From contig NZ_JAQGNQ010000072.1 of the NCBI RefSeq assembly GCF_028291745.1, positions 1 through 64,000 of the forward strand: a stretch of DNA of 64,000 nucleotides, given 5' to 3'. The number at the start of each line of letters is the position of its first letter. Positions within the stretch are counted from its first letter, which is position 1. The DNA comes from Ramlibacter sp. (GTDB lineage Bacteria; Pseudomonadota; Gammaproteobacteria; Burkholderiales; Burkholderiaceae_C). The notes beneath the pieces were generated by a model. That model did no database searches, was not told the origin of the DNA, and worked only from the letters and a program-made list of their open reading frames with translations. The position numbers were made by a program, and so were the translations under genes. Shown piece by piece: positions 16,741 to 32,911 of the stretch.

Positions 16741-16767
16741 CTCGCAGCCGGTCAGCGCGTCAGGTGC

Positions 16768-18800: not shown

Positions 18801-18817
18801 TTGGCACGCCTCCTGCA
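18801..18817 (+). promoter_or_regulatory. Sigma-54-type promoter upstream of the second regulator and molybdenum-hydroxylase operon
   Basis: TTGGCACGCCTCCTGCA matches YTGGCACG-N4-TTGCW at all but one position, with GG (18803-18804) and GC (18815-18816) exactly 12 bases apart. Transcription would start near 18828, 45 bp before the gene, and would pass through the GGGATCCC operator. This implies control by a sigma-54 activator such as NtrC. No clear activator site was identified. Confidence 0.55.
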
Positions 18818-18820
18818 CTG

Positions 18821-18864
18821 GATCCTGGGAACCCGGTCTGTTTCCGGATCGGGATCCCAAACTG
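18821..18864. promoter_or_regulatory. Putative operator of the FCD regulators, copy 2
   Basis: GATCGGGATCCCAAACTG (18847-18864) repeats the motif found upstream of the first regulator. A more degenerate copy, GGGAACCCGGTCTG, is at 18827-18840. It lies between the predicted sigma-54 start site and the ATG at 18873, a position suited to repression. Confidence 0.5.
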
Positions 18865-18872
18865 GAACACGA

Positions 18873-19634
18873 ATGAGCCAAACCGGGGCGCAGGCCGCCA
18901 GCAGAGCGTCGCAAAGCGTGCAGGACATCGCGCCGGTCGAGGCCAGCGCAGGCAAGCGCACGCTGGCGCAACTGACGTATGCGCGGATCAAGGACAACAT
19001 CTTCGAATTCCGCATGGCACCTGGGCAGCGGTACGCGGAGCAGGAGCTCGCCACCCGTCTGGGCGTGTCGCGCACGCCGCTGCGCTTCGCCCTGCACGTG
19101 CTCGCGCGCGAAGGCTACCTGGTGCGCCTCGAGGGCCACGCCTGCTGGCAAGTCAAGCCGTTCGAGCTCGCCTACTACGAAGACCTGTACGACTTCCGCA
19201 CGCAGATGGAGCTGATCGCGGTGCGGCGCCTGTGCGCGCTGGCTCCCGCTCCCGACTTGTCGGCGCTGTGCGACTTCTGGCTGACGCCCCCGGCCAGTCG
19301 CACGCGCGAGGGCGGGGCGGTCGCGCGCGCCGACGAGAACTTCCACAGCGCGCTGGTGGCGCTGGCGGGCAACGCCGAGATGGCGCGCACGCACGCGAGC
19401 CTCACCGAACGCATCCGCATCATCCGCAGTCTCGACTTCATCAGCGAGGAGCGCATCGACGCCGCGTTCGACGAGCACGCGCAGATCCTGCACGCGCTGC
19501 TGGCGCGCAACGCGGCAGAGGCCGAGACGCTGGTGCAGCGCCACATCGACGGCTCGCGCGCGGAAATCAGCCGCATCACCCTGCAGCGCCTGGCACTGGC
19601 CGCGGCGCACGGCGGCGCCGGCCGCTCCCTCTGA
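18873..19634 (+). CDS. GntR-family regulator with FCD domain (second of a tandem pair)
   Basis: The 253-residue paralogue of the preceding gene shares nearly every motif: RMAPGQRYAEQELATRLGVS, RTPLRFALHVLAREGYLVRL, DENFHSALVALAGNAEM and LTERIRIIRSLDF. The ATG at 18873 has GGAAC seven bases upstream and is preferred to the GTG at 18798, which would put the operator inside the gene. It is followed after 25 bp by the amidohydrolase gene, so it likely heads the molybdenum-hydroxylase operon and represses it until the substrate binds. Confidence 0.87.
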   Translation: MSQTGAQAASRASQSVQDIAPVEASAGKRTLAQLTYARIKDNIFEFRMAPGQRYAEQELATRLGVSRTPLRFALHVLAREGYLVRLEGHACWQVKPFELAYYEDLYDFRTQMELIAVRRLCALAPAPDLSALCDFWLTPPASRTREGGAVARADENFHSALVALAGNAEMARTHASLTERIRIIRSLDFISEERIDAAFDEHAQILHALLARNAAEAETLVQRHIDGSRAEISRITLQRLALAAAHGGAGRSL

Positions 19635-19659
19635 ACCAGCCCACACCACAAGGAACTCC

Positions 19660-20946
19660 ATGCTTCCCGACTACGACCTCCTCCTTGCCGGCGGCCACCT
19701 GGTCGACCCGGCGCAGGGCCTGGACGGCTGCCACGACATCGCCATCCGCGACGGCAAGGTCGCGGCGATCGTGCCCGCCGGCAGCCAGCCGCTCGCCGCG
19801 CGCGAGCGCATCGACGTGCGCGACCGCCTCGTGATCCCGGGGATGATCGACACGCACGCCCACGTCTTCGAGCACGTCACCGGCCGCTTCGGGCTGGAGG
19901 CCGACCTCTGCGGCGTGCGCTCCGGGGTGACCACGCTGATCGACCAGGGCGGTCCGTCCTCGATCACCCTGTCGGCCTTCCGCGAGTACGTGGTCCGGCC
20001 CAAGGCAAGCCGCGTCTTTGCCTACCTGTCTTCCTACCTGGTCGGCGGGCTGGAGGGGCACTACTACCCTTCGCTGTACAAGCCCGACTGCGTGGACGTG
20101 GAGGCGACGCTCAAGGCGGCGCTGGCCAACCGCGACATCGTCAAGGGCTTCAAGGCGCATGCCGAACTCGGCGGCTTCGCGCGCTGGGGCATCGAGGTGA
20201 TGGCCAAGTCCGCCGAGATCGCGCGCCGCGCCGGCATGCCGCTGTACATCCACTTCGGGCAGCTCTGGCCGCTGCCTTCCGAGGGCGCCAACGGCGTCGA
20301 CCCTGACACGATCCTGGAGCAGGTGGTGCCGCTGCTCAAGGCGGGCGACATCCTGGCCCACCCGTTCACCCGCCACCCTGGCGGTTTCGTCGACCGCCAG
20401 GGGCGCGTGCACGCCATCGTGCGCGAGGCGCTGGCGCTGGGGCTGAAGGTCGACGTCGGCCACGGCTCGCATTTCAGCTACCGGATGGCCCGCATCGCCC
20501 TGGACGCGGGAATCATGCCGCACACCCTTGGTGCCGACACGCACGGCTACAACACGAACGTGCCGCAGCCGGCCGGCACGCCCGACGAACATCCGGACAA
20601 GGAGCACATGTTCTTCGGCCAGCAGCGCTTCTCGCTGGCCTCCGCGATGACGGCGATGCTGGCCCTCGGTATGCCGCTCGAATACGTGGTGCGCATGGTG
20701 ACCTGCAACGTGGTCGACGTGTTCGGCCTGCCGGCGGAACTGGGCACGCTCAAGGTGGGCAACCCCGCCGACATCAGCGTGCTGCACGACTTGCGCGGCC
20801 GCTTCGCGCTGCGCGACAACGAGGGCACGCAGCTGGTGGGCGAGCGGGTGCTCAACCCCGACTTCTGCCTGCGCGAGGGTCGGCGCTTCGACGCGGATGC
20901 CTCGATCCTGCCGGTGATCGAGGCGCTCGCCAGCGAGGCCGCATGA
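19660..20946 (+). CDS. Amidohydrolase/deacetylase-family metallohydrolase
   Basis: The 428-residue enzyme has the amidohydrolase barrel with HxH in DTHAHV (His66, His68), a likely carboxylated lysine in VKGFKAHAE (Lys165), His198 in LYIHFG, His234 in AHPFTRH and Asp293 in GADTHGY. This gives a two-metal site. The closest architectures are dihydroorotase- and enamidase-like enzymes that open cyclic amides or deacetylate small molecules. A GGA-rich site precedes the ATG. Its stop overlaps the ATG of the molybdenum subunit by four bases. It probably opens or deacylates the product of the hydroxylase; the substrate is unknown. Confidence 0.8.
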   Translation: MLPDYDLLLAGGHLVDPAQGLDGCHDIAIRDGKVAAIVPAGSQPLAARERIDVRDRLVIPGMIDTHAHVFEHVTGRFGLEADLCGVRSGVTTLIDQGGPSSITLSAFREYVVRPKASRVFAYLSSYLVGGLEGHYYPSLYKPDCVDVEATLKAALANRDIVKGFKAHAELGGFARWGIEVMAKSAEIARRAGMPLYIHFGQLWPLPSEGANGVDPDTILEQVVPLLKAGDILAHPFTRHPGGFVDRQGRVHAIVREALALGLKVDVGHGSHFSYRMARIALDAGIMPHTLGADTHGYNTNVPQPAGTPDEHPDKEHMFFGQQRFSLASAMTAMLALGMPLEYVVRMVTCNVVDVFGLPAELGTLKVGNPADISVLHDLRGRFALRDNEGTQLVGERVLNPDFCLREGRRFDADASILPVIEALASEAA

Positions 20947-23324
20947 ACCAGAGCGAACAGCTGCACCTGGGCGCTGCCCGGCACGGCGTGGGGGCGTCCT
21001 TGCGGCGCAAGGAGGACGCGCGCTTCCTCACCGGCCGCGGCCAGTTTGTGGGCGACATCCGCCTGCACGGCATGCTGGAGGTGGCCTTCGTGCGCTCGCC
21101 GGTGGCCCACGGTCGCATCCTGTCCATCAGCAAACCCGAGGGGCACGAGGACAGCGTCTTCACGATGGACGACCTGCACGGCGTCCGGCCCATCCGCGCG
21201 GTCAGCGGCCTCAAGGGCTTCAAGCCCAGCGATCAGTGGCCGCTCGCGCGCGGCAAGGTGCGCCAGGTGGGCGAGGCCATCGCACTGTGCGTGGCGCCCA
21301 CGCGCGCGCAGGCGGAGGACCTCGCCGCGCAGGTGCTCGTGGAGATCGAGGATCTGCCGTCGGTGGTGGACATGCTCCAGGCGCGCGGCGCCACGCCGCC
21401 CGCTCTGGTCCACGAGGAATGGGGCGACAACGTCTTCCTGCACACGCACGTCCAGGGCGCCCTCGACGAGGTCCGGTTGCGGGCCGAGATCGTGGTGCGT
21501 CGCCAGCTGCGCACGGCGCGCCAGAGCATGGCGCCGCTGGAAGGCCGTGCCGTGCTGTGCCAGTGGGACCCGCGCCTGGAGCAGCTGGTGATGCACAGCG
21601 CCGCGCAGATGCCGCACATCAACCGGGCCGGGCTGTCGGAGTGCCTGGGCATCGACCAGGGGCACATCCGGGTGATCGCTCCGGACGTGGGTGGGGGCTT
21701 CGGCTACAAGGGCATCCTGCTGCCCGAGGAGGTGTGCCTGGGCTGGCTGGCCAGGCACCTGCAGCGGCCGGTGCGCTGGCTGGAGGATAGACGCGAGCAG
21801 CTCACGGCCGGCACCAACTGCCGCGAGCATCACTACGACATCACGCTGTACGCGCGCAAGGATGGCAAGCTGTTGGGAATCGAGTGCGATGCGAGCGTCG
21901 ATTCCGGCGCCTATTCCTCGTATCCCTTCTCGGCCTGCCTGGAGGCGGCGCAGATCGGCTCCATCCTCCCCGGGCCCTACCGGATGGAGGCGTACGACTG
22001 CCGCACCTGGTCGGTGGCGACGAACAAGCCGCCGATCCTGCCTTACCGCGGCGTTGCGCGCACTGGCGTGTGCTTCGCGCTGGAGGTGATGATGGACGCA
22101 GTGGCGCGCCAGGCCGGGCTCGAGCCGCACGAGGTGCGGCTGGCCAACCTGGTGCAGCCGCACGAGATGCCCTACGACAACATCACGGGCAAGCACTTCG
22201 ATTCCGGCGACTATCCGCAGGCGCTGCGCCGCGCCCTCCAGGCGCTGGACCTGCCGAAGTGGCGGGCGCGCCAGAAGCAGGGCGAGAGCGACGGCCGCCG
22301 CATCGGCATCGGCCACGCCATCTACTGCGAGCAGGCCGCGCACGGCACCTCGGTCTACCACGGCTGGGGCATCCCCATGGTGCCCGGCCACGAGGCCTGC
22401 AACGCGCGCCTCACCCCCGACGGCATCCTGGAACTGCGCATCGGTGCGCATTCGCACGGACAGGGCATGGAGACGACCCTGGCGCAGGTGGCCTGCTCGA
22501 TGCTGGGCATCGACGAAGGCGACGTTCGCCTGGTGCATGGCGACACCGCGCTGTCGCCGTATTCCACCGGCACCTGGGGCTCGCGCTGTGCCGTGATGTC
22601 CGGCGGCGCCGTCGCCACCGCGTGCAAGGAGCTGCGCGAACGCGTGCTGGCGATCGCCTCGGTGCTGCTCGAGGTGCCCGCCGCCGCCCTGAAGCTCGCC
22701 GACGGCGGCGTGGTCGATCCCGCCAGCGACCGGCGCATCAGCCTGTTCGACGTGGCGCATGCCTGGTACCGCCAGCCGCAGCGACTGCCCCAGGGCATCC
22801 ACCCCGCGGGCCTGGAGGTCAGCGCCGGCTACAAGCCGGCGCGGGACACGGGCACCTTCAGCTACGCGGCGCATGCCTGTGCCGTGGCGGTGGACACGCA
22901 GCTCGGGACGGTGGAGATCCTCGACTACGCGATCTGCGAGGACGGTGGCGTGCTGCTCAACCCGATGGTGGTCGACGGCCAGATCCTGGGCGGCCTCGCC
23001 CAGGGCATAGGCACCGCCCTCTACGAGGAGATGCCGTACGACGGCGAAGGCCAGCCGCTCGCCTCGACGCTGGCCGACTACATCCTTCCCGGTGCCACCG
23101 AGGTGCCCTCGGCGCGCCTGGAGCACATGGAGACGCCGTCGCCGTACACCGAGTTCGGGCAGAAGGGGATCGGGGAGGGCGGGGCCATCGCGCCGCCCGC
23201 GGCGATCGTCAACGCGATCAACGACGCGCTCGCGCCGCTGGGCGTCGAAATCCTGGAGTGCCCGGCCTCGCCGCGGCGCATCCTGGCTGCGCTGCATGCC
23301 GCGCGCCACAAGGGGACGGAATGA
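20943..23324 (+). CDS. Xanthine dehydrogenase family molybdenum-binding subunit (CoxL-like)
   Basis: The 793-residue subunit starts with the GASLRRKEDARFLTGRGQF segment typical of CO-dehydrogenase-like large subunits. It continues with the molybdopterin-binding glycine run GGGFGYKG and ends with FGQKGIGEGGAI, where Glu745 is the catalytic base. The active-site loop reads LPYRGVARTGV and not the AYRCSFR loop of true CO dehydrogenase, so it should hydroxylate an organic, probably N-heterocyclic or aldehyde, substrate. With the FAD and FeS subunits encoded next it forms an alpha2beta2gamma2-type enzyme in the cytoplasm. Confidence 0.87.
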   Translation: MNQSEQLHLGAARHGVGASLRRKEDARFLTGRGQFVGDIRLHGMLEVAFVRSPVAHGRILSISKPEGHEDSVFTMDDLHGVRPIRAVSGLKGFKPSDQWPLARGKVRQVGEAIALCVAPTRAQAEDLAAQVLVEIEDLPSVVDMLQARGATPPALVHEEWGDNVFLHTHVQGALDEVRLRAEIVVRRQLRTARQSMAPLEGRAVLCQWDPRLEQLVMHSAAQMPHINRAGLSECLGIDQGHIRVIAPDVGGGFGYKGILLPEEVCLGWLARHLQRPVRWLEDRREQLTAGTNCREHHYDITLYARKDGKLLGIECDASVDSGAYSSYPFSACLEAAQIGSILPGPYRMEAYDCRTWSVATNKPPILPYRGVARTGVCFALEVMMDAVARQAGLEPHEVRLANLVQPHEMPYDNITGKHFDSGDYPQALRRALQALDLPKWRARQKQGESDGRRIGIGHAIYCEQAAHGTSVYHGWGIPMVPGHEACNARLTPDGILELRIGAHSHGQGMETTLAQVACSMLGIDEGDVRLVHGDTALSPYSTGTWGSRCAVMSGGAVATACKELRERVLAIASVLLEVPAAALKLADGGVVDPASDRRISLFDVAHAWYRQPQRLPQGIHPAGLEVSAGYKPARDTGTFSYAAHACAVAVDTQLGTVEILDYAICEDGGVLLNPMVVDGQILGGLAQGIGTALYEEMPYDGEGQPLASTLADYILPGATEVPSARLEHMETPSPYTEFGQKGIGEGGAIAPPAAIVNAINDALAPLGVEILECPASPRRILAALHAARHKGTE

Positions 23325-24132
23325 AGCCCGCACCATTCGAACTGCATGCCTGCCGCAGCCTGCCCGAGGCGATCGCGCTGCTCGCCGCGGGCGATGGCAT
23401 GGCCAAGGCCGCGGGTGGCACGCAATCGCTCGGCCCGATGTTGAACCTGCGGCTCGCCCAGCCCGCGCAGCTGGTCGACGTGAGCCGGGTGGAGGCGCTG
23501 CGCGGCTTCGCGCTGCAGGGCGAGACCTTGCGCATCGGCGCCGGCGTCACCCACGCCCGCATCGAGGACGGGCAGCTGCCGGAGATCACCCGCGGTCTGC
23601 TGCCCGCGGTGGCTGGCGGCATCGCCTACCGCGCCGTGCGCAATCGCGGCACGCTGGGCGGCAGCCTCGCGCACGCGGACCCCGCCGCCGACTGGGTCAG
23701 CACCATGACGCTGCTCGACGCGACGCTGGTGCTGCTGGGCCCCGTCGGCGAGCGGCGCCTGCGCGCGGGCGCGTTCTTCCTCGGCCCGTTCACCACCGCG
23801 CTGCGCGAGGACGAACTGCTGGTCGCGATCGAGATCAGGCGCTTTTCGCCGCGGGCGCGCTGGGCCTACCGCAAGGCGTGCCGCAAGCCCGGCGAGTTCG
23901 CGCAAGCGATCGCGGCGGTGTGGACCGACTCCACGCATGGCAGCGCGCGGGTCGTGCTGGGTGCGCTCGGCGGCATGCCGCACGTCATCGAAGGCCAGGG
24001 CGCGCTCGAACTGCTGCGCACCGATGCCGGCCTGGAGCGCGCGCTCGACGACGCCGGCCTTGTGGAAGCTTATGAACGCCAGCTGCACGCCACCATGCTC
24101 AGGCGCGCGCTGGCCGACCTGGACGCATCCGA

Positions 24133-24136
<4 letters not shown>
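23321..24136 (+). CDS. Molybdenum hydroxylase FAD-binding subunit
   Basis: The 271-residue protein has the FAD_binding_5 motifs KAAGGTQSLGPMLNLRLAQP (about 28-47) and RNRGTLGGSLAHADPAADW, followed by the CO-dehydrogenase flavoprotein C-terminal domain. It passes electrons from the FeS clusters to the acceptor. The ATG overlaps the stop of the large subunit by four bases and its stop overlaps the FeS subunit gene by four, so the three are tightly coupled. No separate NAD-binding domain is visible. Confidence 0.87.
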
Positions 24137-24607
<471 letters not shown>

Positions 24608-24618
<11 letters not shown>

Positions 24619-25297
24619 ACAGCGCTTCACCTTGCCGGTGCCGCCGGCGCAGGCCTGGCCCGCCTTCCACGACATCGCGCTGCTGGTCGAGTGCCTGCCC
24701 GGCGCCTCGCTGGCCGGCGAGCTGAGGGACGGCGAGGTGCCGCTGCGCTTCGAGGTCAGGATGGGGCCGATCGTGGCCGCCTTCACCGGCAGCGGCCGCG
24801 TCGGCTTCGACGAGGCGGCGCGCAGCGGGCGCTTCGAGGGCGCGGCCGCCGACCGCAAGACCAATTCGCGCGTCAAGGGCGCGGCGGACTTCGCGCTGGC
24901 AGAGGCCGGGGCCGGTACCGAGGTCACCGTGCGGGTGGACTACACGCTGTCGGGCACGCTGGCGCAGTTCGGCCGCATCGGTCTCGTGCGGGAGATCGCC
25001 AATACGCTGACCGCGCAGTTCGCCGCCAATCTCGAGGCCCGGTTGAATGCAACGCTGCCCGCGGCGGCACCAGCAACGGCGCCAGCGGCGCCGCCAGCCC
25101 AGCACATCCCGCGCGAGATCGCCCCGGACAGCCCGCCCATGTGGCTGGCCGCCGAGGCGGTGCCGGCGGGCGCCACCGCCGCGTCCGCAGGTCGCGCCGG
25201 CGCGCTGCCGCTGTCGCTCACGGCCCTGCTCGCGCGGGTTCTGCGCGAGCGCTGGTCGCGGCTCGCGCGGCGCGTCTCGCCAGGGGGGCGGCGATGA
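24608..25297 (+). CDS. CoxG-like SRPBCC protein
   Basis: The 229-residue protein begins MQVEQRFTLPVPPAQAWPAF and shows the SRPBCC fold of CO-dehydrogenase subunit G (CLPGASLAGE, DFALAEAGAGTEVTVRVDYT, GRIGLVREIANTLTAQFAAN). A proline/alanine linker and a C-terminal amphipathic stretch (LALLARVLRERWSRLARR-like) follow. CoxG proteins anchor the hydroxylase to the membrane, and one has been shown to bind quinone, linking it to the respiratory chain. The gene overlaps the FeS gene by 11 bases. Confidence 0.82.
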
Positions 25298-25340
25298 ACC
25301 CGTGCAACGGGCCGCGCGCAGTCTGCATGGCGATCTGACG

Positions 25341-26480
25341 ATGCCGTCCGCGATCGACAGCCTGCTCTCCGTGCAGCCGCTGCTGGCGGGGGTCGCATCG
25401 GCGGGCGAAGCGCTGGGGCTGGCGGCGCGGACGATGCTGCATGCGGGGCCGCCACTGCGGGATCCGCAGCGGCCGCCGCCGGTCGTCCTCTCGTCGGCCG
25501 TGATCGCGATCCTGCACGAAGGCCTGGCGGCGAATGAGCAGGACGCCGAGGCGCTGGTGCGCGCGGGCGGGGTGACGCTCACGCCGGCGCAGGAGCATGG
25601 TTGCGTGCTGCCGCTCGCGTTCGTGGCCTCCGCGCGCACCCCGCTCTTCGCGGTGGAGGCGCAGGGCCGCCGCATGTACGCGCCCGTCTCAACCGTGCGG
25701 GGGCCGGACACGCGCATGGGATCGCGCGAGCAGGGCCTGCGCGAGCGGCTGCTTGCGCGCGACGAGCTGATCGCCCCTGCCTGGCGGTGCCTGCTGGCGC
25801 AGCATGGGCCGGTGCCCTTGCTGCCGCTGGCGGCGCGCGCGCTGCAGGAGGGCGACGACCTGCACAGTCGCACCACGGCGGCAACCGCTGCGCTCGCGGC
25901 CGGGGTGCGCCAGCACGCCGGCGCGCTGGCCGATGCGCTGGATGCCACGCCGCTCTTCTTCCTCACCTTGTGGATGGCGGCGAGTGCGCTGATCCTGCGG
26001 GCCGCGGAAGGCGGCGACCTGCCTACGCTGGTGACGCGCGCGGGCGGCAACGGCGAGCGCTTCGGCATCGCACTGGCCGGCGCGCCGCGCGAGTGGATCT
26101 GTGCCGATGCCCAGCCGCCCTCCGGCACTTTGCTGAGGCCTGCGCCGGCCGGCGTGGCCGGCGCGATCGGCGACAGCGCGGTGATCGACATGCTCGGTTG
26201 CGGCGGGCTCGCGCTGGACAGCGCGCCCGAGCCGCTGCAGGCCTTCGCGGGCCACCTGCCGGCGGACCATGCCCGCCTCGCCGGGCGGCTGCTGGCTGCG
26301 TGGCACCCGGTGCTGGAGCGGCCGGTCGCCGTCGATGCGCGACGCGTGTGCGCAGAGGCGGCGGCGCCGCTCGTGGCACTCGCGATGCTCGGTGCCGACG
26401 GCGCGACCGGCTTCGTCGGCCGCGGCCTGTACCGTCCGCCGCTCGAGCTGTTCGCGCGGGCCGTGGCGGGACTGGCCTGA
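25341..26480 (+). CDS. DUF1116 protein (AllG/YlbE-like)
   Basis: The 379-residue protein matches PF06545. AIDSLLSVQPLLAGVASAGE, HEGLAANEQDAEALVRAGGV, NGERFGIALAGAPREWI and GADGATGFVGRGLYRPPLEL are in the usual order. The E. coli member YlbE (AllG) is one of three subunits of oxamate carbamoyltransferase with AllF and AllH. Neither partner is in this window, so the role here is open. The ATG at 25341 is used; a GTG at 25302 is also in frame. An ATG at 25294 overlapping the CoxG stop leads to only 14 codons, and one extra base near 25300 would join it to this frame, so a sequencing or natural frameshift is possible. Confidence 0.78.
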   Translation: MPSAIDSLLSVQPLLAGVASAGEALGLAARTMLHAGPPLRDPQRPPPVVLSSAVIAILHEGLAANEQDAEALVRAGGVTLTPAQEHGCVLPLAFVASARTPLFAVEAQGRRMYAPVSTVRGPDTRMGSREQGLRERLLARDELIAPAWRCLLAQHGPVPLLPLAARALQEGDDLHSRTTAATAALAAGVRQHAGALADALDATPLFFLTLWMAASALILRAAEGGDLPTLVTRAGGNGERFGIALAGAPREWICADAQPPSGTLLRPAPAGVAGAIGDSAVIDMLGCGGLALDSAPEPLQAFAGHLPADHARLAGRLLAAWHPVLERPVAVDARRVCAEAAAPLVALAMLGADGATGFVGRGLYRPPLELFARAVAGLA

Positions 26481-26568
26481 GCGGCGAGGGGCGACTCGCG
26501 CCCCCCGCCGCTCGTGCATGAGGCCGCACAGCGCGCACCGCCATGGGGCGGCACGCCGCCCTCGCTGC

Positions 26569-26584
26569 TGGCACCGATCTTGCA
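26569..26584 (+). promoter_or_regulatory. Sigma-54-type promoter of the guanidine-riboswitch operon
   Basis: CTGGCACCGATCTTGCA fits the -24/-12 consensus YTGGCACG-N4-TTGCW with one mismatch; GG (26570-26571) and GC (26582-26583) are 12 bases apart. Transcription would begin near 26595, about 30 bp before the riboswitch and roughly 200 bp before the first gene. A GC-rich partial palindrome at 26534-26555 could be an activator site but is weak. Confidence 0.6.
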
Positions 26585-26624
26585 CATTTCCGGCGGTGAG
26601 AGGCGGCCCCGCGCAAGCGGCCCG

Positions 26625-26736
26625 CTGTTGCAGGACCGCTAGGGTTCCGGGCCGTTCGCGCGGCCGTCTGGTCCGAGAGCGGTCGGCCGCAGATCGTTGC
26701 GGTTCCACGGAGGGACAAAAGCCCGGGAGATCACGG
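26625..26736 (+). ncRNA. ykkC-family riboswitch, best match guanidine-I class
   Basis: The leader contains the conserved blocks in the right order and spacing: CGCTAGGGTTCCG (26637-26649), a hairpin GGCCG-TTCGCG-CGGCC, CTGGTCCGAGAG (26668-26679), then CCACGGAGGGACAAAAGCCC and GGGAGA (26705-26730). GACCGC (26634-26639) can pair with GCGGTC (26679-26684) to close the first stem. The blocks TCCGAGAG and ACAAAAGCCCGGGAGA fit guanidine-I and differ from what I recall for the PRPP and ppGpp variants. It lies 55 bp upstream of a Tau/Ssu-type permease gene, a gene class known to be controlled by this riboswitch. No clear intrinsic terminator is seen, so control may be at translation or by another route. 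Confidence 0.82.
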
Positions 26737-26790
26737 CGAGCGCAAGTTCGACGTCGTCTCTCCCGTTGCCCGCCACTCGAGCCTGGAGCC

Positions 26791-27615
26791 ATGCAGTCCT
26801 TCTTTAGCGCCACCTCCTCCGCCCGCCCCGGCCTGTGGACCATCGCGGGGCAGCTCTCGCGCGCCCAGTACATCGGCTTCGCCGCGCTGGGCCTGGTCGT
26901 TCCCCTCGTGCTCTGGGCCCTGCTGTCTGCCTCCGGCTGGGTGGACCCGGTGTTCCTGCCCGGGCCGCTGCAGGTGGTGCGGCGGCTGGTGGAATGGGCC
27001 ATCGAGGACGACCTCGCGCATGACACGCTGATCAGCGTCGGCCGCGTGGTCGGCGGCTTCGTGCTGTCCGCGGTCATCGCCTTGCCGCTCGGGCTGCTGA
27101 TCGGCGCCTTCCGGCCGGTGGAGGCGCTGCTGGAGCCGCTGACCGACTTCATCCGCTACATGCCCGCCGTGGCCTTCATTCCGCTGGTGATGCTGTGGCT
27201 GGGCATCGGCGAGAGCGCCAAGGTGGCGATCATCTGGATCGGCACCTTCTTCCAGATGGTGCTGATGGTCGCCGAGAACGTGCGGCTGGTGCCCAGGGCG
27301 CAGATCGAGGCGGCCCAGACCATGGGCGCCACCCGCGGCGAGATCATCCGGCTGGTGCTGCTGCAGTCGGCCAAGCCGGCGATCCTGGACACCCTGCGCA
27401 TCACCATGGGCTGGGCCTGGACCTACCTCGTGGTGGCGGAACTGGTGGCAGCCAACTCCGGCCTGGGCTACTCGATCCTGAAGGCGCAGCGCTTCCTCAA
27501 GACCGACATCATCTTCGCGGGCATCGTGCTGATCGGCGTGATCGGGCTGGTGATCGACCAGGCCTTCCGCTGGCTGCACCGCCGCGCCTTCGCTTACCTG
27601 CATGGCGGGAGCTGA
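26791..27615 (+). CDS. ABC transporter permease, SsuC/TauC type
   Basis: The 274-residue inner-membrane protein of the nitrate/sulfonate/taurine permease family shows MPAVAFIPLVMLWLGIGESA and the EAA loop RAQIEAAQTMGATRGEIIRL, with about six helices. The ATG follows GCCTGGAGCC. As the first gene behind the guanidine-I-like leader it likely belongs to an importer of guanidine or a related N-compound; this family is often linked to that riboswitch. Confidence 0.87.
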   Translation: MQSFFSATSSARPGLWTIAGQLSRAQYIGFAALGLVVPLVLWALLSASGWVDPVFLPGPLQVVRRLVEWAIEDDLAHDTLISVGRVVGGFVLSAVIALPLGLLIGAFRPVEALLEPLTDFIRYMPAVAFIPLVMLWLGIGESAKVAIIWIGTFFQMVLMVAENVRLVPRAQIEAAQTMGATRGEIIRLVLLQSAKPAILDTLRITMGWAWTYLVVAELVAANSGLGYSILKAQRFLKTDIIFAGIVLIGVIGLVIDQAFRWLHRRAFAYLHGGS

Positions 27616-27622
27616 TCGCACC

Positions 27623-28444
27623 ATGTCCAAGGTCGCCATCCGCAAACTCGGCAAGGTGTTCGCCGGCAGCGCGAGCCCGGTCCCCGCCCTGGAGAACATC
27701 GACCTGGACGTCGGCGAAGCCGAATTCGTCACGCTGGTCGGCGCCTCCGGTTGCGGCAAGTCCACGCTGCTGCGCATCCTCGCCGGCCTGGAGTACCACA
27801 CGAGCGGCCAGCTGGTGTGCGACGGGCATCCGGTGCGCGGCCCGGGCGCCGACCGGGCGATGGTGTTCCAGCACTACAGCCTGTATCCCTGGCTGTCCGT
27901 GATCGACAACATCAAGTTCAGCCGCGGGCTGCGGGTCAACCGCCGGGAGCTCACGTCGTCCGACGTCGAGACCGCCTCCGGCCGGGCCGACGCCCTGCTG
28001 AACCTGATCGGCCTGGAGCGCTTCGCCCATGCCTGGCCGCGCCAGCTCTCGGGCGGCATGCAGCAGCGGGTGGCGATCGCGCGCGCACTGCTCGGGCGGC
28101 CCTCCATCCTGATGATGGACGAACCCTTCGGAGCGCTCGACGCGCAGTCTCGCGAGGTGATGCATGACCTGATCCTGCACATCCACCGGATCGAGCGCAC
28201 GACCATCGTGTTCGTCACGCACGACGTCGAGGAGGCCATCTACCTGGGGCAGCGCGTGGTGGTCATGCAGCCGCGCCCCGGGCGCATCCAGCGCATCTAC
28301 GACGTACCCCTTCCCGCCGAGCGGCACCAGGACATGAAGCACGAGCCGGCCTTCCGCGCGCTGCGTGCCGAGATCCTCGACTGCATCCGCCAGAACGCGG
28401 GCCTCAGCACCGATGTGGAGCTGCTGGACAAGCTCAATGCCTGA
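27623..28444 (+). CDS. ABC transporter ATP-binding protein, SsuB/TauB type
   Basis: The 273-residue ATPase has Walker A GASGCGKST (40-48), Q-loop VFQHYSLYPWL, signature LSGGMQQRVAIARAL, Walker B ILMMDEPFGALD and switch His in FVTHDVEEAIYLG. The ATG at 27623 lies eight bases after the permease stop and is preferred to the overlapping in-frame start at 27602. It drives uptake with the preceding permease and the following binding protein. Confidence 0.88.
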   Translation: MSKVAIRKLGKVFAGSASPVPALENIDLDVGEAEFVTLVGASGCGKSTLLRILAGLEYHTSGQLVCDGHPVRGPGADRAMVFQHYSLYPWLSVIDNIKFSRGLRVNRRELTSSDVETASGRADALLNLIGLERFAHAWPRQLSGGMQQRVAIARALLGRPSILMMDEPFGALDAQSREVMHDLILHIHRIERTTIVFVTHDVEEAIYLGQRVVVMQPRPGRIQRIYDVPLPAERHQDMKHEPAFRALRAEILDCIRQNAGLSTDVELLDKLNA

Positions 28445-28525
28445 CGCCGCACCGCTTTGGGGAAGCGCGCTGCGCCCCCTGCGTCGCCAGGCGTCACCCG
28501 ATTTTCACAACCAGGAGCCTTCGCC

Positions 28526-29560
28526 ATGACTTCCTTCCTCCCGTCCCTGCAATCCGGCGCCCAGTCGCTGCTGGGCCGCCTGATCAGGCCGCTGGCCGTG
28601 CTGGCGCTCGCCGGCAGCGCCGCGACCGCTGCGGTGGCAGCGCCGACGCCGCTCAAGATCGGCACCGTGGTGTGGATCGGCTACGGCCCGTTCTACGTGG
28701 CCGAGGCGCAGGACCTGTTCAAGAAGTACAACCTCAAGGTGTCGCTGCAGGTGTTCAGCGATCCGGCGCTGATCCCGCCGGCGCTGGTGGGCGGCGCGAT
28801 CGACGGCGCCATGGTGACCTACGACCAGGTGATCGGCCAGGTGGCCGCCGGCAAGGCGCAGAAGGTCGTGATGCCGATCGACTACTCCAACGGCGGCGAC
28901 GCCATCGTGGCGGACCGCAGCATCGTCAAGCTCGCCGACATGAAGGGCAAGAAGATCGGCTACAACCCGCTGTCGCCCTCCGACTTCCTGCTGTCCTATG
29001 CCCTGAGCAAGGCCGGCCTCTCGGCGAAGGACATCACGCCCGTGAGCATGACGCCGGAAGCGGTGCCGGCGGCGATGGCCTCCGGCCAGATGCCGATCGG
29101 CGTCACCTACGAGCCGAGCCTGTCGCAGATCGTCGGCCAGGGCGGCGGCAAGAAGTTCAAGGTGCTGTTCTCCTCCAAGGACGCGCCCGGCCTGATCGCC
29201 GATGTGCTGGTGTTCGACGACAAGTTCATCAAGGCGCGGCCGACCGAAGTCTCCGGCGTGATCCAGGGCTACCTCGATGGCCTGGCCTTCATGCGCGCCA
29301 AGCCGGATGAGGCGGCGAAGATCATCGGCAAGGCCATGGGCGTGTCGGCCAAGGAAGTGCGCGAGCAGTTGTCCGGGGTCTACAACATCCCGCTGGCCGA
29401 GATGCCCAAGGCCTTCGCCAAGGGCAAGGACACCACCTCCTACTACGCCAGCGGCGCCGTCATCGGCGGGCTGCTGAAGGCCAAGGGCCAGATCACCACG
29501 CTGCCGGCCACCGAAGCCACCATAGACGCGCAGTTCGTTAACGCGCTGGCCAAGAAGTAA
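28526..29560 (+). CDS. ABC transporter substrate-binding protein, SsuA/NMT1 type
   Basis: The 344-residue protein has a long signal peptide (LIRPLAVLALAGSAATAAVAA, cleavage about residue 38). The mature NMT1-like domain begins LKIGTVVWIGYGPFYVAEA and includes GAIDGAMVTYDQVIG and ATEVSGVIQGYLDG-like lobes. CCAGGAG precedes the ATG. It captures the imported compound in the periplasm. The ligand is inferred to be guanidine or a substituted guanidine, from the riboswitch. Confidence 0.85.
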   Translation: MTSFLPSLQSGAQSLLGRLIRPLAVLALAGSAATAAVAAPTPLKIGTVVWIGYGPFYVAEAQDLFKKYNLKVSLQVFSDPALIPPALVGGAIDGAMVTYDQVIGQVAAGKAQKVVMPIDYSNGGDAIVADRSIVKLADMKGKKIGYNPLSPSDFLLSYALSKAGLSAKDITPVSMTPEAVPAAMASGQMPIGVTYEPSLSQIVGQGGGKKFKVLFSSKDAPGLIADVLVFDDKFIKARPTEVSGVIQGYLDGLAFMRAKPDEAAKIIGKAMGVSAKEVREQLSGVYNIPLAEMPKAFAKGKDTTSYYASGAVIGGLLKAKGQITTLPATEATIDAQFVNALAKK

Positions 29561-29624
29561 TCCACGCCAGCGGCGGGCCCGGCGGCGCCGGGTGCCGCCG
29601 CCGCGTGCCGCACGGAGCAAAAGC

Positions 29625-30641
29625 ATGATCTCCCAACACCTGCGCGACCCCGGCGGGGCCGTCCCCAACGTGCTGGCGCTCACCGTGGTGCTCGCTGGCT
29701 GGCCGGTCGGCATCGCCCTGCTCGGCGCCCCGGCGTGGTGGCTCAACGCGACGGGCTTCATGCTCGTCGTGCTGGCGCTCACCTGGTCCGCCTACTACAT
29801 CCATGAGTTCGCGCATCTGGCGATCTTTCGATCGCCCGCTGTGAACGAGCGCTGGGGCCGCGTGATGACGTGGATCAACGGCAGCTGCTACGCGCCCTTC
29901 GCGGACCTGCGCCGCAAGCACATGCGGCACCACGTCGAACGCGCCGACGTCGTGACCTTCGACGTGCGCGGCTTCCTGCTGCGTGCGCCGGCCTGGGTGC
30001 GAACAACGGTGCTGGCGCTGGAGTGGTGCTACCTGCCGGCGGTCGAATTCCTGATGCGCGGCTTCGTGATCGCCCTGCCATTCCGCGACCCCGCGCGCCA
30101 CGCCGCGCGCAAGCGCATCGTCACCATCGCGCTGGTGCGGCTCGCCGCGATCGTCGCTCTGGGCTGGTGGTCGCCGAAGGCGCTGGTGCTCTATGCGCTG
30201 GCCTACCTGGTGTTCGTGACGGTGCTGCGCTTCGCCGACTGCTTCCAGCACACCTACGACGCCTATCCGATCGATGGCGACCAGCCGATCCCCGAAGACA
30301 AGGTCCGCGACCGCGTCTACGAGCAGCTCAATACCTACACCAACGTGGTCGGCATCGACAGCCCCGTTCTGAACCTGCTGTGGCTGAACTTCGGCTACCA
30401 CAACGCACACCACGAGCGCCCGGTGCTCGCGTGGCACCGGCTGCCGGCCTACCACCGCGAGCTCTATGGCGACGCCTGTGCGCAGGTCGTGCCGGTACGC
30501 GATCTGGTGCGCAGCTTCCACGTCCATCGCGTCAGCCGCATCCTCGCGCCCGACTACGGCGCGGTGCTGGCCCCCGGCACGCCGGCGCGCGCCGACGGCT
30601 TCCTCGGCGCGGTCGGCGTGTCCTTTCTCACCGCCGTGTGA
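29625..30641 (+). CDS. Membrane fatty-acid-desaturase-like di-iron enzyme
   Basis: The 338-residue protein has hydrophobic pairs of helices and the three histidine boxes of the desaturase/hydroxylase superfamily: HEFAH (about 66-70), HMRHH (about 105-109) and HNAHH (about 266-270), with an extra His in DCFQHTYDAYP. These enzymes use a di-iron centre and O2 to oxidise C-H bonds. CGGAG precedes the ATG and the gap to the binding-protein gene is 64 bp, so it seems part of the operon. Its place behind an importer and guanidine-I-like leader suggests oxidation of an alkylated or small N-compound rather than of a lipid, but this is inference. Confidence 0.78.
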   Translation: MISQHLRDPGGAVPNVLALTVVLAGWPVGIALLGAPAWWLNATGFMLVVLALTWSAYYIHEFAHLAIFRSPAVNERWGRVMTWINGSCYAPFADLRRKHMRHHVERADVVTFDVRGFLLRAPAWVRTTVLALEWCYLPAVEFLMRGFVIALPFRDPARHAARKRIVTIALVRLAAIVALGWWSPKALVLYALAYLVFVTVLRFADCFQHTYDAYPIDGDQPIPEDKVRDRVYEQLNTYTNVVGIDSPVLNLLWLNFGYHNAHHERPVLAWHRLPAYHRELYGDACAQVVPVRDLVRSFHVHRVSRILAPDYGAVLAPGTPARADGFLGAVGVSFLTAV

Positions 30642-30669
30642 AGCGATCCATGGCCGCCCCGGAGCCTGC

Positions 30670-31365
30670 ATGAACCCGACCCCGACGATCTTCGATGAGC
30701 GAGGAGGCTGCGTGAGCGCCGATGCCAGCGCCCTGCTGGTGATCGACATGCAGCGCGATTTCTGCGCGCCGGGTGGCTATGCGCACCGCGCCGGGCTGGA
30801 CGTCGCGCGCCTGGCCGAGCCGATCGCGAACATCCGGCGCCTGCTGGATGCGGCCCGCGCCCGCAAGTGGCTGGTGGTGCACACCCGCGAAGGGCATCTG
30901 CCGGACCTGTCCGACTGCCCGCCGGCCAAGCTGGCGCGCAGCACCGCCGCGGGCGCGGCGATCGGCGCCGCCGGGCCGATGGGCCGGCTGCTGGTGCGCG
31001 GCGAACACGGGCACGACTTCATCGACGAACTGCGGCCCGCGGCCGGCGAGCCGGTGATCGACAAGCCCGGCTACGGCGCCTTCCACGGCACCGGACTGCA
31101 GGCGCTGCTGCAGGCGCACGGGATCGAACGGCTGGTGGTCTGCGGGGTGACCACCGAGGTCTGCGTGCACTCCACCGTGCGCGAGGCGACCGACCGGGGA
31201 TTCCGCTGCGTGACGGTGGCCGACGCCACTGCCGCCAGCGACCCGGCGCTGCAGGCCCCCGCGCTCGCCATGCTGCGGGTCGAAGGGGGGATCTTCGGCT
31301 CGGTCGCGTGCACCGGGCACGTGCTGCGCGAGATGGCCGCGGCCACGCTGGAGGCGCAACCGTGA
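30670..31365 (+). CDS. Isochorismatase-family cysteine hydrolase
   Basis: The 231-residue enzyme carries the catalytic triad Asp26 (VIDMQRDF), Lys132 (DKPGYGAFHG) and Cys165 (GVTTEVCVHST), plus the cis-peptide region before the cysteine. Family members hydrolyse amide or carbamoyl bonds, for example in ureidoacrylate, biuret, maleamate and nicotinamide. In this operon a carbamoyl- or ureido-type substrate would fit. The ATG lies 28 bp after the desaturase gene, and the stop overlaps the next gene (GTGA). Confidence 0.85.
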   Translation: MNPTPTIFDERGGCVSADASALLVIDMQRDFCAPGGYAHRAGLDVARLAEPIANIRRLLDAARARKWLVVHTREGHLPDLSDCPPAKLARSTAAGAAIGAAGPMGRLLVRGEHGHDFIDELRPAAGEPVIDKPGYGAFHGTGLQALLQAHGIERLVVCGVTTEVCVHSTVREATDRGFRCVTVADATAASDPALQAPALAMLRVEGGIFGSVACTGHVLREMAAATLEAQP

Positions 31366-32168
31366 CGCGCGCCACGCGCCTGTGGCCGCTGCTGACTGCC
31401 ACGCACCGCTACGACAAGTCAATCTCGACGTACCGGCGCGGCGCCGGGCAGACGATCGAGGCGCCTATCCTCGCCTACCTGGTCGAAACGCCCAATGGCC
31501 GCATCCTGTACGACGTCGGCTGCGATCACGCCAAGATCGCCGATCCGGCGCTGCGCGCGCGCCACTACGACCCCGCGGTGTTCGCCTTCGGCGCGCCCGA
31601 GATGGGCGAGGAGCAATGCCTGCCGCGGCACCTGGCACGGCTCGGGCTGACGCCGGCCGACGTCGACGTGGTGTTCGTCGGCCATCTGCACTTCGACCAC
31701 GCGGGCGGCCTGCGGGAGCTGCGCCGCTGCGGCTGCGGCGCCGAGATCCACGTGCAGCAGGAGGAACTGAAAGCAGCCCGCAGCGGCGAGGACGTTGCCG
31801 TCTTCGCCGACGAACTGCTGGACCAGGCCGGCCGGCCGCTGCCCTTCACCGTGCGCGAGGGCGAGTACGAGCTGACGCCGGGCGTGCAGGCGGTCGCCAC
31901 GCCGGGCCACACGGCCGGCCACATGTCGATGTGGATCGAGCTGCCGACCGGCGCGCCGGTGCTGCTGTGCGGCGACGCCGCCGACCTGCAGGAGAACCTC
32001 GACGACGAGGTCGCCCCCGGCGGTCTCTGGCAGGGCCGCGAGGCCCAGGCGATCGCCAGCATCCGCAAGCTCAAGGCCCTGGCGGCCGAGACTGGCGCCG
32101 AGCTCTGGCCCAACCACGACATGGACTTTTTCCGGCGGCTGCCTGCCGTGCGCGGGGAGCCGTCATGA
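31362..32168 (+). CDS. Metallo-beta-lactamase-fold hydrolase, N-acyl-homoserine-lactonase-like
   Basis: The 268-residue protein has HLHFDHAGG (His108, His110, Asp112, His113), ATPGHTAGHMS and LLCGDAADL, and a final NHD, giving the two-zinc site of this fold. The outline matches the AhlA/AttM-like lactonase group, but many relatives act on other esters, lactones or amides. The GTG start overlaps the isochorismatase stop, and its own stop overlaps the next ATG. This close coupling suggests a step in the same pathway rather than quorum quenching. Confidence 0.82.
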   Translation: MTRATRLWPLLTATHRYDKSISTYRRGAGQTIEAPILAYLVETPNGRILYDVGCDHAKIADPALRARHYDPAVFAFGAPEMGEEQCLPRHLARLGLTPADVDVVFVGHLHFDHAGGLRELRRCGCGAEIHVQQEELKAARSGEDVAVFADELLDQAGRPLPFTVREGEYELTPGVQAVATPGHTAGHMSMWIELPTGAPVLLCGDAADLQENLDDEVAPGGLWQGREAQAIASIRKLKALAAETGAELWPNHDMDFFRRLPAVRGEPS

Positions 32169-32911
32169 ACGAGGTGCCGCGGCACTACCTGGGCGTCTGG
32201 GAACGCAAGGTCCTGCGCGTGGGCAGCGAGCCGCAGGACACCCGAACGCGCGTGTTCTGGCTGCAGACGCCGCACTGGCACGCGGACGTGAGGGTGCCGG
32301 CCGATCGCCCCTCCTTCGCTGGCGTGGCGTCGCCTGCCGACTGTTCCGTCCAGCAACTGCGCTGGCTGGTGCGGCAGGAAGCCTTCGCCGGCATCACCAC
32401 GGTGAGCGGCGACCGCTGTTGGTGGCACCGCATGATCGATTTCCGGTTCCGGCGCTCGCAGGACGTCGGCCGCATGGCCTTCGCGGGCGAGCAGGTCGAG
32501 GAGTTCGGCGTGCATGCCGACTACTACGAACTGTGGCAGCGGCTGCCCGGCACCGGCACGGGCGCGCGGGCTTGGCAGGACACCGCCGGGCCGCGCCGCA
32601 TCGCTTGTGTCGCCGGAGACCGTTTCCTGTTCGTGCGCGAGCGCCCGGTGTGGGATGCGGAGGCCGTGCGCATCCAGGCTCGCATCGAGCTGGGCGAGGC
32701 GAGCCGCGTCGAACTGGAAGCGTTCGTCGACTTCGAGGCGTCGTTCGGCCGCATCGAAGGCGACGCGGCCCGCATCGAGCTGTCCACGCTGCCCTGGCGC
32801 GAGGGCGCGATTGCGTTCACGCTGTCGGGGCTGCAACGCGAACCCTGGCAACCGGCCGGCATCGGCCCTGTGCATGCTGCCGTGTTCGAGGCGGCCGCCG
32901 GCGCAAGCTAG
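32165..32911 (+). CDS. Protein of unknown family, last gene of the guanidine-riboswitch operon
   Basis: The 248-residue protein is soluble, with no signal peptide or membrane segment. It is rich in Trp, Arg and short beta-like stretches (HYLGVWERKVLRV, TRVFWLQTPHWHADVRVP, HADYYELWQRLPG), which suggests a two-barrel lipocalin- or HRI1-like fold, though I cannot identify a family. Conserved-looking features are the paired Trp/His segments and a single WWHRMIDFRF. It overlaps the lactonase-like gene by four bases, so it is cotranslated and likely helps the same pathway, perhaps by binding a ligand. Confidence 0.7.
   Translation: MNEVPRHYLGVWERKVLRVGSEPQDTRTRVFWLQTPHWHADVRVPADRPSFAGVASPADCSVQQLRWLVRQEAFAGITTVSGDRCWWHRMIDFRFRRSQDVGRMAFAGEQVEEFGVHADYYELWQRLPGTGTGARAWQDTAGPRRIACVAGDRFLFVRERPVWDAEAVRIQARIELGEASRVELEAFVDFEASFGRIEGDAARIELSTLPWREGAIAFTLSGLQREPWQPAGIGPVHAAVFEAAAGAS

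Follow-up and report, generated by a model that had tools for sequence, protein, structure and literature searches.

A sigma-54 promoter element and a predicted guanidine-I riboswitch in front of a putative guanidine-releasing operon in Ramlibacter

The guanidine-I riboswitch of a related operon is reported to bind guanidine with a KD of 44 μM, whereas methylguanidine is not bound (PMC12508155). Sigma-54/NtrC control of 'urea carboxylase' genes has already been published as well (PMC5491218, PMC12316311): A urea carboxylase of B. cenocepacia is down 6-fold when ntrC is mutated (PMC5491218). Among the enzymes relevant here, the hydrolase of plasmid pMET-2 turns over guanylurea at 11 μmol/min/mg and biuret almost not at all (PMC9800807), and in the biuret hydrolase BiuH the exchange Q215E lowers kcat/KM from 149742 to 115, while Lys145 variants are effectively inactive (PMC5806882). 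Our literature search returned no description of a link between the riboswitch and nitrogen control or of the operon presented here, and the searched text of PMC7266159 contains neither 'sigma' nor 'promoter'. We analyzed a stretch of 64,000 nt, hereafter the window, from Ramlibacter sp. (GTDB: Pseudomonadota; Gammaproteobacteria; Burkholderiales; Burkholderiaceae_C; assembly GCF_028291745.1, contig NZ_JAQGNQ010000072.1, positions 1-64,000, forward strand). In our main reading, to which we assign a probability of about 0.6, a two-input control region in this window governs a salvage operon that releases guanidine and requires both nitrogen limitation and guanidine (Table 1).

Table 1. Positions of the control elements and genes in the window.
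Feature	Position	Strand	Basis
NtrC-like palindrome CGCACC-N5-GGGGCG, candidate enhancer	26534..26550	+	score 14.5 of 18
Sigma-54 -24/-12 element TGGCACCGATCTTGCA (GG-N10-GC)	26569..26584	+	exact match, conserved
Putative transcript start (+1)	26595	+	predicted from -12 GC position / -24/-12 spacing
Predicted guanidine-I riboswitch aptamer	26628..26731	+	RF00442 Guanidine-I, 95.7 bits, full length
Post-aptamer hairpin, candidate expression platform	26724..26765	+	aptamer 3' CGGGAG pairs with CUCCCG; -20.7 kcal/mol; no U-tract
ABC transporter permease (TauC/SsuC/NtrB type)	26791..27615	+	PF00528 93 bits; NCBIfam names below cut-off
ABC transporter ATPase	27623..28444 (start 27602 possible)	+	PF00005 109 bits; ntrCD subfamily 220 bits, below cut-off
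Periplasmic substrate-binding protein (SBP), NMT1/SsuA type	28526..29560	+	PF13379, PF09084
Membrane di-iron oxygenase, fatty-acid-desaturase fold	29625..30641	+	HEFAH, HxRHH, HNAHH boxes
Isochorismatase-like cysteine hydrolase, guanylurea-hydrolase-type pocket (Y135, E205)	30670..31365	+	BiuH model 251 bits, cut-off 370
Metallo-beta-lactamase-fold (MBL) hydrolase, AHL-lactonase/4-pyridoxolactonase-like	31362..32168	+	PF00753 70 bits
ORF7, conserved protein	32165..32911	+	no Pfam/NCBIfam match; lipocalin-like barrel, closest to yeast YLR301w

The control region

An earlier, sequence-only reading of this stretch had reported the signature blocks of the ykkC RNA family and assigned them to the guanidine-I class. 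All three RNA blocks that it quoted lie where it had placed them, and the RNA is a predicted full-length guanidine-I aptamer with guanidine as its ligand, the match covering model positions 1-107 well above the gathering threshold (63 bits; E 3.8e-16). RF00442 is the sole Rfam family above its cut-off in the 64 kb, and in the comparison of ykkC subtypes by covariance model, which was made via Rfam alone, Guanidine-I is the single family that scores; a permissive scan of 26560-26800 adds just mir-207 at 13.3 bits (cut-off 88). The same genome carries a second guanidine-I copy (G000:C31), and both are linked to transport or degradation genes: In the window an importer lies downstream, and the second copy precedes CgdAB-type and carboxylase genes. 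As for the expression platform, hairpins of -10 kcal/mol or below follow the aptamer at 84% of 147 sites versus 31% of 294 shuffles. There is no evident sign of intrinsic termination, as the window has no U-tract and a T-rich tail follows the hairpin at just 11 of 106 sites. The folding energy of the whole leader is unremarkable (z -1.3), and an SD-like GGAG no more than two bases from the ATG counts against the proposed explanation.

The near-consensus -24/-12 promoter that had been claimed just upstream of the RNA is borne out by an exact match conserved in the comparative samples. Reading TGGCAC-N5-TTGCA, it is the single zero-mismatch site of the window, where base composition predicts 0.02 over both strands, and lies 43 bases upstream of the aptamer. 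An RpoN-dependent start, predicted 12 bases below the -12 GC, would fall near 26595. Relaxed matching within the window alone was discarded as uninformative: Two mismatches yield 16 sites against 21.8 expected. By our own promoter score (maximum 16.5), nine sites across the two strands of the window attain at least 14, and one of these, at 26374, falls within the gene upstream. Since relaxed matches are no commoner than chance, the case for the promoter is made by its exactness, its location and its conservation.

In the host's class, a sigma-54-like promoter element is a general feature upstream of guanidine-I sites and is not confined to this locus. Counting promoter scores of at least 14 within 200 nt above the aptamer, we found a sigma-54-like element at 22/22 family loci, 25/28 class loci and 25/27 phylum loci, compared with 1/30 for TPP riboswitches as a control; the sets were taken best aptamers first (family, 22 of 22 places; class, 28 new loci of 39; phylum, 27 new loci of 59 places; TPP, 30 of 71 places). 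Within the phylum set, all 22 host-class loci pass, as do three of the five outside the class (L217, L221, L223, L224, L226), each of these three with its element starting 25-27 bases above the aptamer; the failures are L100, L112 and L117 in the class set and L217 and L224 in the phylum set. Such tight spacing (20-27 bases) occurs in 7 of the 72 passing loci (L096, L106, L110, L111, L221, L223, L226), which would put the start at or within the first bases of the aptamer, and in L101 the element lies 162 bases above it. The strand control gives 167/173 in forward versus 5/173 in reverse orientation, a few loci being counted twice under two sources (e.g. L031/L136, L027/L194, L034/L132, L073/L196). 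A further set of 40 sites contains 39 that score at least 14, the exception, L047, being cut by a contig end. Scores of 10-11 were obtained for the operon riboswitch of L122 and L126, both at contig edges, and of L138 (Polaromonas CG9_12), which is not at an edge; the reverse-strand riboswitch of L148 scores 13. Guanidine-II, considered as a promoter contrast, was left unscored because just 10 sites were found, spread over 9 of 143 genomes, and four or more of them have a guanidine-I site within 5 kb (G114, G510, G609, G628).

The sequence-only reading had tied the operon to guanidine and to nitrogen control at once; both ties receive comparative support, the latter through the promoter type and NtrC-like sites. 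The activator of the promoter is most likely NtrC, of which the host genome encodes one representative over the cut-off: NtrC-like sites scoring at least 14 occur in 63% of 160 leaders, compared with 3.2% of coding control stretches and 9.4% of mononucleotide shuffles, and 75 of 101 such sites are located 56 to 130 bases upstream of the promoter. That the -24/-12 element is real but answers to another enhancer-binding protein, with a second input other than nitrogen, would fit the 37% of leaders without such a site, the several NtrC-related proteins of the genome, and the window's own NtrC-like site, which starts unusually close to the -24 element (35 bases above it) and has one core mismatch. 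Given the excess of NtrC-like sites over the controls and a urea carboxylase among the NtrC-dependent genes of B. cenocepacia (PMC5491218), we consider this quite unlikely. The near-constant pairing of sigma-54 elements with guanidine-I in the class suggests that guanidine serves as a nitrogen source once better ones are exhausted and is more than a mere poison; reporter or growth tests of these riboswitches under nitrogen-rich conditions would then be predicted to miss the response.

Genes of the operon and its relatives

The operon had been described as uncharacterised, which is accurate for the operon as such but not for its genes, as these belong to recognizable kinds. The SBP shares about 29-35% identity with SBPs of canonical guanidine operons. 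For the MBL hydrolase, all NCBIfam matches listed fall below their cut-offs, and HutD was dropped as a name for ORF7 because it lacks Pfam and NCBIfam support and the fold is lipocalin-like; our proposed pathway gives no role to either protein. Further upstream in the window lies a CoxLMS/AllG cluster that looks like heterocycle catabolism. We do not regard it as part of the system, as none of its genes was matched at 1e-15 in 40 relative loci.

The oxygenase combines histidine boxes for two irons with the membrane fold of the desaturase/AlkB type (PF00487). Foldseek alone matched nothing below 0.001, and the desaturase profile against PDB sequences gave one chance match and no relative; in a second structural comparison the protein aligned, with AlkB and SCD1 as the nearest solved enzymes of known function among the matches listed. 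This fold and these neighbors would also suit a stress response, in which a desaturase remodels membrane lipids as guanidine, a denaturant, accumulates. Such a role is highly improbable in view of the importer-type SBP that adjoins the oxygenase in 79 of 80 relative loci, the nitrogen-type promoter, the hydrolases in the same operon and the tie to guanidine degradation genes.

The cysteine hydrolase possesses the Asp-Lys-Cys catalytic triad (D26, K132, C165), and the substrate-binding Lys145 and Gln215 of BiuH are replaced by the tyrosine and glutamate given in Table 1. Both replacements recur in the relatives, counted at the 58 of 80 loci with matches longer than 180 residues: Lys145 corresponds to Tyr in 57 (one Phe) and Gln215 to Glu in 57 (one gap). 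We therefore rejected BiuH as a name for the enzyme, the score also being below the cut-off. Its identity amounts to 61% with the pMET-2 hydrolase and 46-47% with two BiuH proteins, and it has Tyr, Glu and His at three pocket positions in common with the former. The pMET-2 gene that we compared (CP098607) is probably the assayed BB_00025, judging from the plasmid and the neighboring deaminase gene and not from a matching tag; the guanylurea-hydrolase signature is our own reading, taken from this one enzyme of presumed identity. By this signature, the window hydrolase would be of the guanylurea-hydrolase type, with a corresponding predicted activity.

Relatives of the operon were represented by the best 80 of 218 loci. 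In 75 of these 80, the SBP-oxygenase pair is immediately preceded by a guanidine-I riboswitch; the set favors riboswitch-linked relatives because the search alignment consisted partly of such sequences. Three of the other five loci begin at a contig edge. In an even sample of the order, the riboswitch is directly upstream in 16 of 22 other oxygenase-positive genomes (15 over the family cut-off, one cut by a contig end) and not directly upstream in six. Across the 300 sampled genomes, a CgdAB-type protein over the cut-off is present in 22/23 oxygenase-positive versus 17/277 oxygenase-negative genomes (Fisher p 9e-22, without kinship correction), and a looser TIGR03424 search (E ≤ 0.001) matches 62/300. 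In the host genome itself, UAAP1 and UAAP2 over the cut-off and urea_carbox with 1848 bits are found behind the second riboswitch.

Most relatives show a long operon form, with two SDRs, a DMT transporter and a creatininase between oxygenase and hydrolase; all of these are absent from the window operon, a point against our main reading. The creatininase family acts on a cyclic guanidine. Of 59 relatives with a complete flank, 51 have a creatininase gene, and that of one relative, L042, exceeds the cut-off of the creatininase equivalog TIGR04448 (361.8 bits vs 235) and aligns over its whole length with P. putida creatininase. Creatinine or a close relative might accordingly be the natural substrate: The oxygenase would form 5-hydroxycreatinine, the SDRs would oxidize it, the creatininase would open the ring and the hydrolase would free (methyl)guanidine, the window representing a reduced form that uses another enzyme's product or a simpler substrate. 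As a chemical precedent, creatol and N-methylguanidine are formed from creatinine in water when carbon materials and oxygen are present (PMC3775425). Nevertheless, we regard this route as unlikely: Neither creatininase nor SDRs are encoded in the window, the position of Trp174 in creatininase is occupied by Phe in L042, so that the substrate may differ, and the lack of methylguanidine binding by the related riboswitch (PMC12508155) speaks against it as well. For the window's own operon form, creatinine was rejected as unsupported, with no creatininase over the cut-off in the host genome. In the guanidine review PMC12186494, the text available to us does not contain 'creatin', and 'desaturase' appears just for NapI.

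The over-cut-off creatininase of the long form also bears on whether guanidine is involved at all. The operon could handle a non-guanidine nitrogen compound, guanidine being merely a co-occurring environmental signal: The oxygenase, MBL and SBP all belong to broad families, the assigned substrate is itself conjectural, and the upstream cluster resembles heterocycle catabolism. This is rather improbable in light of that creatininase, the CgdAB-type co-occurrence and the Tyr/Glu pocket common to the probable guanylurea hydrolase.

The proposed route

According to our main reading, nitrogen limitation would lead to activation of sigma-54 RNA polymerase, most likely by NtrC, and thereby to a transcript from about 26595, whereupon the guanidine-I aptamer would set whether expression goes on. 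With guanidine bound, the 3' CGGGAG would be kept within the aptamer and the downstream hairpin blocked, which would make this an ON switch. A guanidino compound would then be imported via the operon's own SBP and presumably oxidized by the membrane di-iron oxygenase, after which the guanylurea-hydrolase-like enzyme may cleave a carbamoyl- or acyl-guanidine bond to give free guanidine. The released guanidine would further raise expression of the operon and finally be degraded by the products of the guanidine carboxylase/CgdAB operon behind the second guanidine-I riboswitch.

This operon of little-studied uptake and enzyme genes thus probably frees guanidine from larger molecules for the nitrogen supply of the cell. 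A broader reading, which we put at somewhat less than even odds, is that in the host's class, and maybe in the wider Pseudomonadota, for which the samples contain only five loci outside the class, guanidine-I as a rule forms the second half of a fixed AND-gate made of sigma-54/NtrC and RNA. In Burkholderiales, this gate would control an undescribed pathway of membrane di-iron oxygenase and guanylurea-hydrolase-like enzyme, joined in the long form by SDRs and a creatininase, that frees guanidine from a natural guanidino compound, e.g. creatinine or an acylguanidine. If so, the tested guanylurea hydrolase of the wastewater plasmid would be a member of this older type of enzyme that the plasmid has borrowed. 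A conserved operon that seemingly makes guanidine in the cell, behind a guanidine sensor, would moreover offer a direct route to the natural source compound.

Comparison with known systems

The published nitrogen-controlled systems resemble the window in that degradation genes of the same class are under nitrogen control; unlike the window system, they are described without mention of guanidine in the available portions of PMC5491218 and PMC12316311, where 'riboswitch' is absent from the former and occurs in the latter once, within a reference title. The pMET-2 enzyme of Pseudomonas mendocina resembles the window hydrolase in the aforementioned identity and pocket residues and in adjoining ABC importer genes (PMC9800807, CP098607), but its gene is plasmid-borne and has genes for a LysR-type regulator and a nucleoside deaminase as neighbors. 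BiuH shares the family and the catalytic triad and differs in having kept Lys145 and Gln215, the window protein scoring below the NCBIfam cut-off. The gca/mgdH/mgdL operon of Vreelandella boliviensis is likewise a guanidine-I operon, in which an additional oxygenase step releases guanidine from a substituted guanidine. In that organism, the gca operon itself includes the 2-oxoglutarate dioxygenase and the lyase (PMC12508155), whereas the window has a separate operon that encodes a membrane di-iron oxygenase together with a GuuH-like hydrolase. The guanidine carboxylase/CgdAB operons, one of which stands behind the second riboswitch of the host genome, have the aptamer class and the kind of ABC importer in common with the window operon. 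The sigma-54 promoter does not set them apart; the difference is that in the window the riboswitch controls oxygenase-hydrolase genes.

A conserved promoter-riboswitch pair

The sequence-only reading had placed a sigma-54-like promoter and a guanidine-I-like riboswitch at 26565-26791, ahead of an uncharacterised operon, and both elements were borne out: the three ykkC RNA blocks it quoted all occur in the window sequence, no Rfam family but RF00442 exceeds its cut-off anywhere in the window, and the upstream element is an exact -24/-12 match that is conserved above guanidine-I aptamers. A permissive Rfam scan of the riboswitch region returned nothing beyond RF00442 except noise.

Features of the window and their coordinates
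Feature	Position	Strand	Details
ABC transporter	7426-10956	-	two BPD_transp_2 permeases, double ATPase; nucleoside or branched-chain amino acid kind
Separate importer with DUF1989 protein	13996-17622	-	family-3 SBP, permease, ATPase; CgdAB/UAAP-related DUF1989 protein (TIGR03424 213 bits, under cut-off); no riboswitch above an Rfam cut-off at this place
Upstream cluster	17871-26480	+	two GntR-FCD regulators, amidohydrolase over cut-off (PRK09237), CoxL-like molybdenum hydroxylase, CoxG-like and AllG-domain proteins, CoxM and CoxS (assigned by eye); resembles nitrogen heterocycle catabolism; ends 88 bases upstream of the sigma-54 element
NtrC-like site	26534-26550		core mismatch
-24/-12 element	26569-26584		TGGCAC-N5-TTGCA
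RF00442 aptamer	26628-26731		95.7 bits, cut-off 63, full length
Post-aptamer hairpin	26724-26765		CGGGAG with CUCCCG, -20.7 kcal/mol
Operon	26791-32911	+	ABC permease, ATPase, substrate-binding protein (SBP), membrane di-iron oxygenase, cysteine hydrolase, MBL hydrolase, ORF7
TPP riboswitch-like match	61379-61488	-	50.5 bits, under cut-off 54.3

The -24/-12 element is the window's single exact match, where composition predicts 0.02; sites with two mismatches occur at chance level, so that the promoter call could not be settled from one window alone. We scored the best element within 200 bases above the aptamer, with at least 14 of 16.5 as a pass. Passing elements precede the guanidine-I aptamer at 22/22 loci of the host family, 25/28 of a class sample and 25/27 of a phylum sample, as against 1/30 TPP riboswitch loci of the host family, which served as a control, and 1.9% of 2460 random 200-base stretches drawn from the loci. 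In a strand control covering 173 sites, with a few loci duplicated, the element lay on the forward strand in 167 and on the reverse strand in 5. Because all 22 host-class loci of the phylum sample pass compared with three of five outside the class, all three more tightly spaced, the promoter-riboswitch rule is established for the class and tentative elsewhere. Among the 72 passing loci, seven have an element that starts just 20-27 bases above the aptamer; there, the transcript start would be at or within the first aptamer bases.

Further upstream, NtrC-like palindromes (at least 14 of 18, within 200 bases above the -24/-12 element) are found in 63% of 160 non-duplicate leaders; coding stretches have them in 3.2% and mononucleotide shuffles in 9.4% of cases. 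Of the 101 in leaders, 75 lie 56-130 bases above the element. The window's own site is nearer than usual (35 bases), and the host genome encodes an NtrC above the curated cut-off.

On the other side, a conserved part of the aptamer is able to pair downstream. Hairpins of -10 kcal/mol or lower from the aptamer end occur at 84% of 147 non-duplicate sites versus 31% of 294 shuffles, with a T-rich tail following in 11/106. Such a hairpin is compatible with an ON switch: guanidine would retain the 3' strand within the aptamer, and the hairpin would otherwise shut off expression.

The operon, its relatives and its hydrolase

Among 300 genomes drawn evenly from the order, 23 carry the oxygenase (E <= 1e-30). 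With the host genome excluded, a guanidine-I riboswitch is present in 21/22 oxygenase-positive genomes and immediately precedes the SBP-oxygenase pair in 16/22 (15 over cut-off, one, G315, cut by a contig end); the other genomes are G228, G269, G354 (also cut by a contig end), G363, G445 and G477. Among the best 80 of 218 oxygenase relatives on GTDB contigs, whose genera comprise Rhizobacter, Rubrivivax, Polaromonas, Rhodoferax, Aquabacterium, Azohydromonas, Hydrogenophaga, Tepidimonas, Thiomonas, Noviherbaspirillum and kin, the SBP adjoins the oxygenase at 79 loci and the riboswitch is directly upstream at 75; three misses start at a contig edge (L179, L181, L192) and two are true (L176, L186). 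Eight of the 80 have a further guanidine-I riboswitch downstream, accompanied by a permease (L126, L133, L138, L146, L157, L165, L170, L189). In four genomes of one family, f30 (L075, L076, L077, L089), the same operon continues with extra SBP genes and a second oxygenase gene, 46-48% identical, possibly for another substrate.

At the 59 loci with more than 5.5 kb downstream, where a gene was scored absent if divergence kept tblastn from matching it at 1e-20, we counted a creatininase at 51, two SDRs at 46 and 51, a DMT transporter at 51, the hydrolase at 52, MBL at 41 and ORF7 at 40. The window's short form (oxygenase-hydrolase-MBL-ORF7) recurs at 2/59, and at five more with the DMT gene added. 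The creatininase of one relative, L042, exceeds the NCBIfam equivalog cut-off (361.8 vs 235) and aligns over its whole length with that of P. putida, with Trp174 replaced by Phe. We propose that an oxygenase, a dehydrogenase, a ring-opening amidohydrolase and an acylguanidine hydrolase, acting in this order, would constitute coherent chemistry for creatinine or an analogue, a chain whose long-form genes are absent from the short form in the window. Creatinine can also give creatol and N-methylguanidine without enzymes (PMC3775425).

The window's hydrolase retains the catalytic Asp, Lys and Cys and scores 251 bits with the biuret hydrolase (BiuH) model, short of the cut-off of 370. Across 58 operon relatives, the BiuH Lys145 position is occupied by Tyr (57) or Phe (1), Gln215 by Glu (57; one gap) and a BiuH Trp by His (57) or Ser (1). 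In BiuH, according to PMC5806882, Gln215 holds biuret by its distal amide; kcat/KM drops from 149742 to 115 in Q215E, and changing Lys145 effectively abolishes activity. With Glu in place of Gln, the distal end is suited to a guanidino group, which is positively charged. A plasmid search retrieved a cysteine hydrolase of P. mendocina pMET-2 with 61-62% identity to the window's, the identical Tyr, Glu and His, and nucleoside deaminase and ABC importer genes as neighbours. As plasmid and neighbour agree, we infer that this gene is BB_00025, which lies beside a cytidine-deaminase-like gene and whose product, according to PMC9800807, cleaves guanylurea at 11 umol/min/mg but barely acts on biuret. 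A plasmid hydrolase of Nitrosospira sp. NRS527 (L258, 7900-8592, forward strand) is 60-63% identical to the window's and shares the Tyr/Glu pocket.

Guanidine breakdown, proposed circuit and known systems

Of these 300 genomes, 39 have a protein above the TIGR03424 (CgdAB-type) cut-off, namely 22/23 oxygenase-positive versus 17/277 oxygenase-negative ones (Fisher p 9e-22, with no kinship correction); both draws are taken as the same genomes because their handles agree. The sole oxygenase-positive genome lacking it, G477, is 89% complete. Behind the second guanidine-I riboswitch of the host genome lie genes for UAAP1 and UAAP2, both scoring over cut-off, and for a urea_carbox protein at 1848 bits.

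Onto the observed control elements, their conservation, the gene content, the residue signature and this co-occurrence we build a model in which activator identity, ON direction, reaction order and substrate would be as follows. Under nitrogen limitation, active NtrC would open the sigma-54 promoter, and basal read-through would provide small amounts of importer and enzyme. The imported compound would be processed to set guanidine free, which would bind the aptamer and raise expression of both the oxygenase-hydrolase operon and the carboxylase operon, the latter converting guanidine to ammonia. Nitrogen limitation and guanidine would then be the two inputs of an AND gate.

Nitrogen control of such genes is partly known, since the parts consulted of two sources report an NtrC-dependent urea carboxylase in B. 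cenocepacia H111 (mutant value -6.0), whose SBP and an 'aminomethyltransferase' also stand on the NtrC-dependent list, no fold change given (PMC5491218), and, in a comparative sigma-54 study, 102 COG3665 genes across alpha-, beta- and gammaproteobacteria, of which 59% bear the name urea carboxylase (PMC12316311). Guanidine is not mentioned in those parts of either source. In the open-licence literature we found no study tying a guanidine riboswitch to sigma-54, NtrC, creatininase or fatty acid desaturase, and among the matches listed nothing on the promoter-riboswitch pairing or the operon. Riboswitch class and promoter type are each of a known kind; the open-licence literature searched gave no precedent for their fixed pairing or for the oxygenase-hydrolase operon that follows it.
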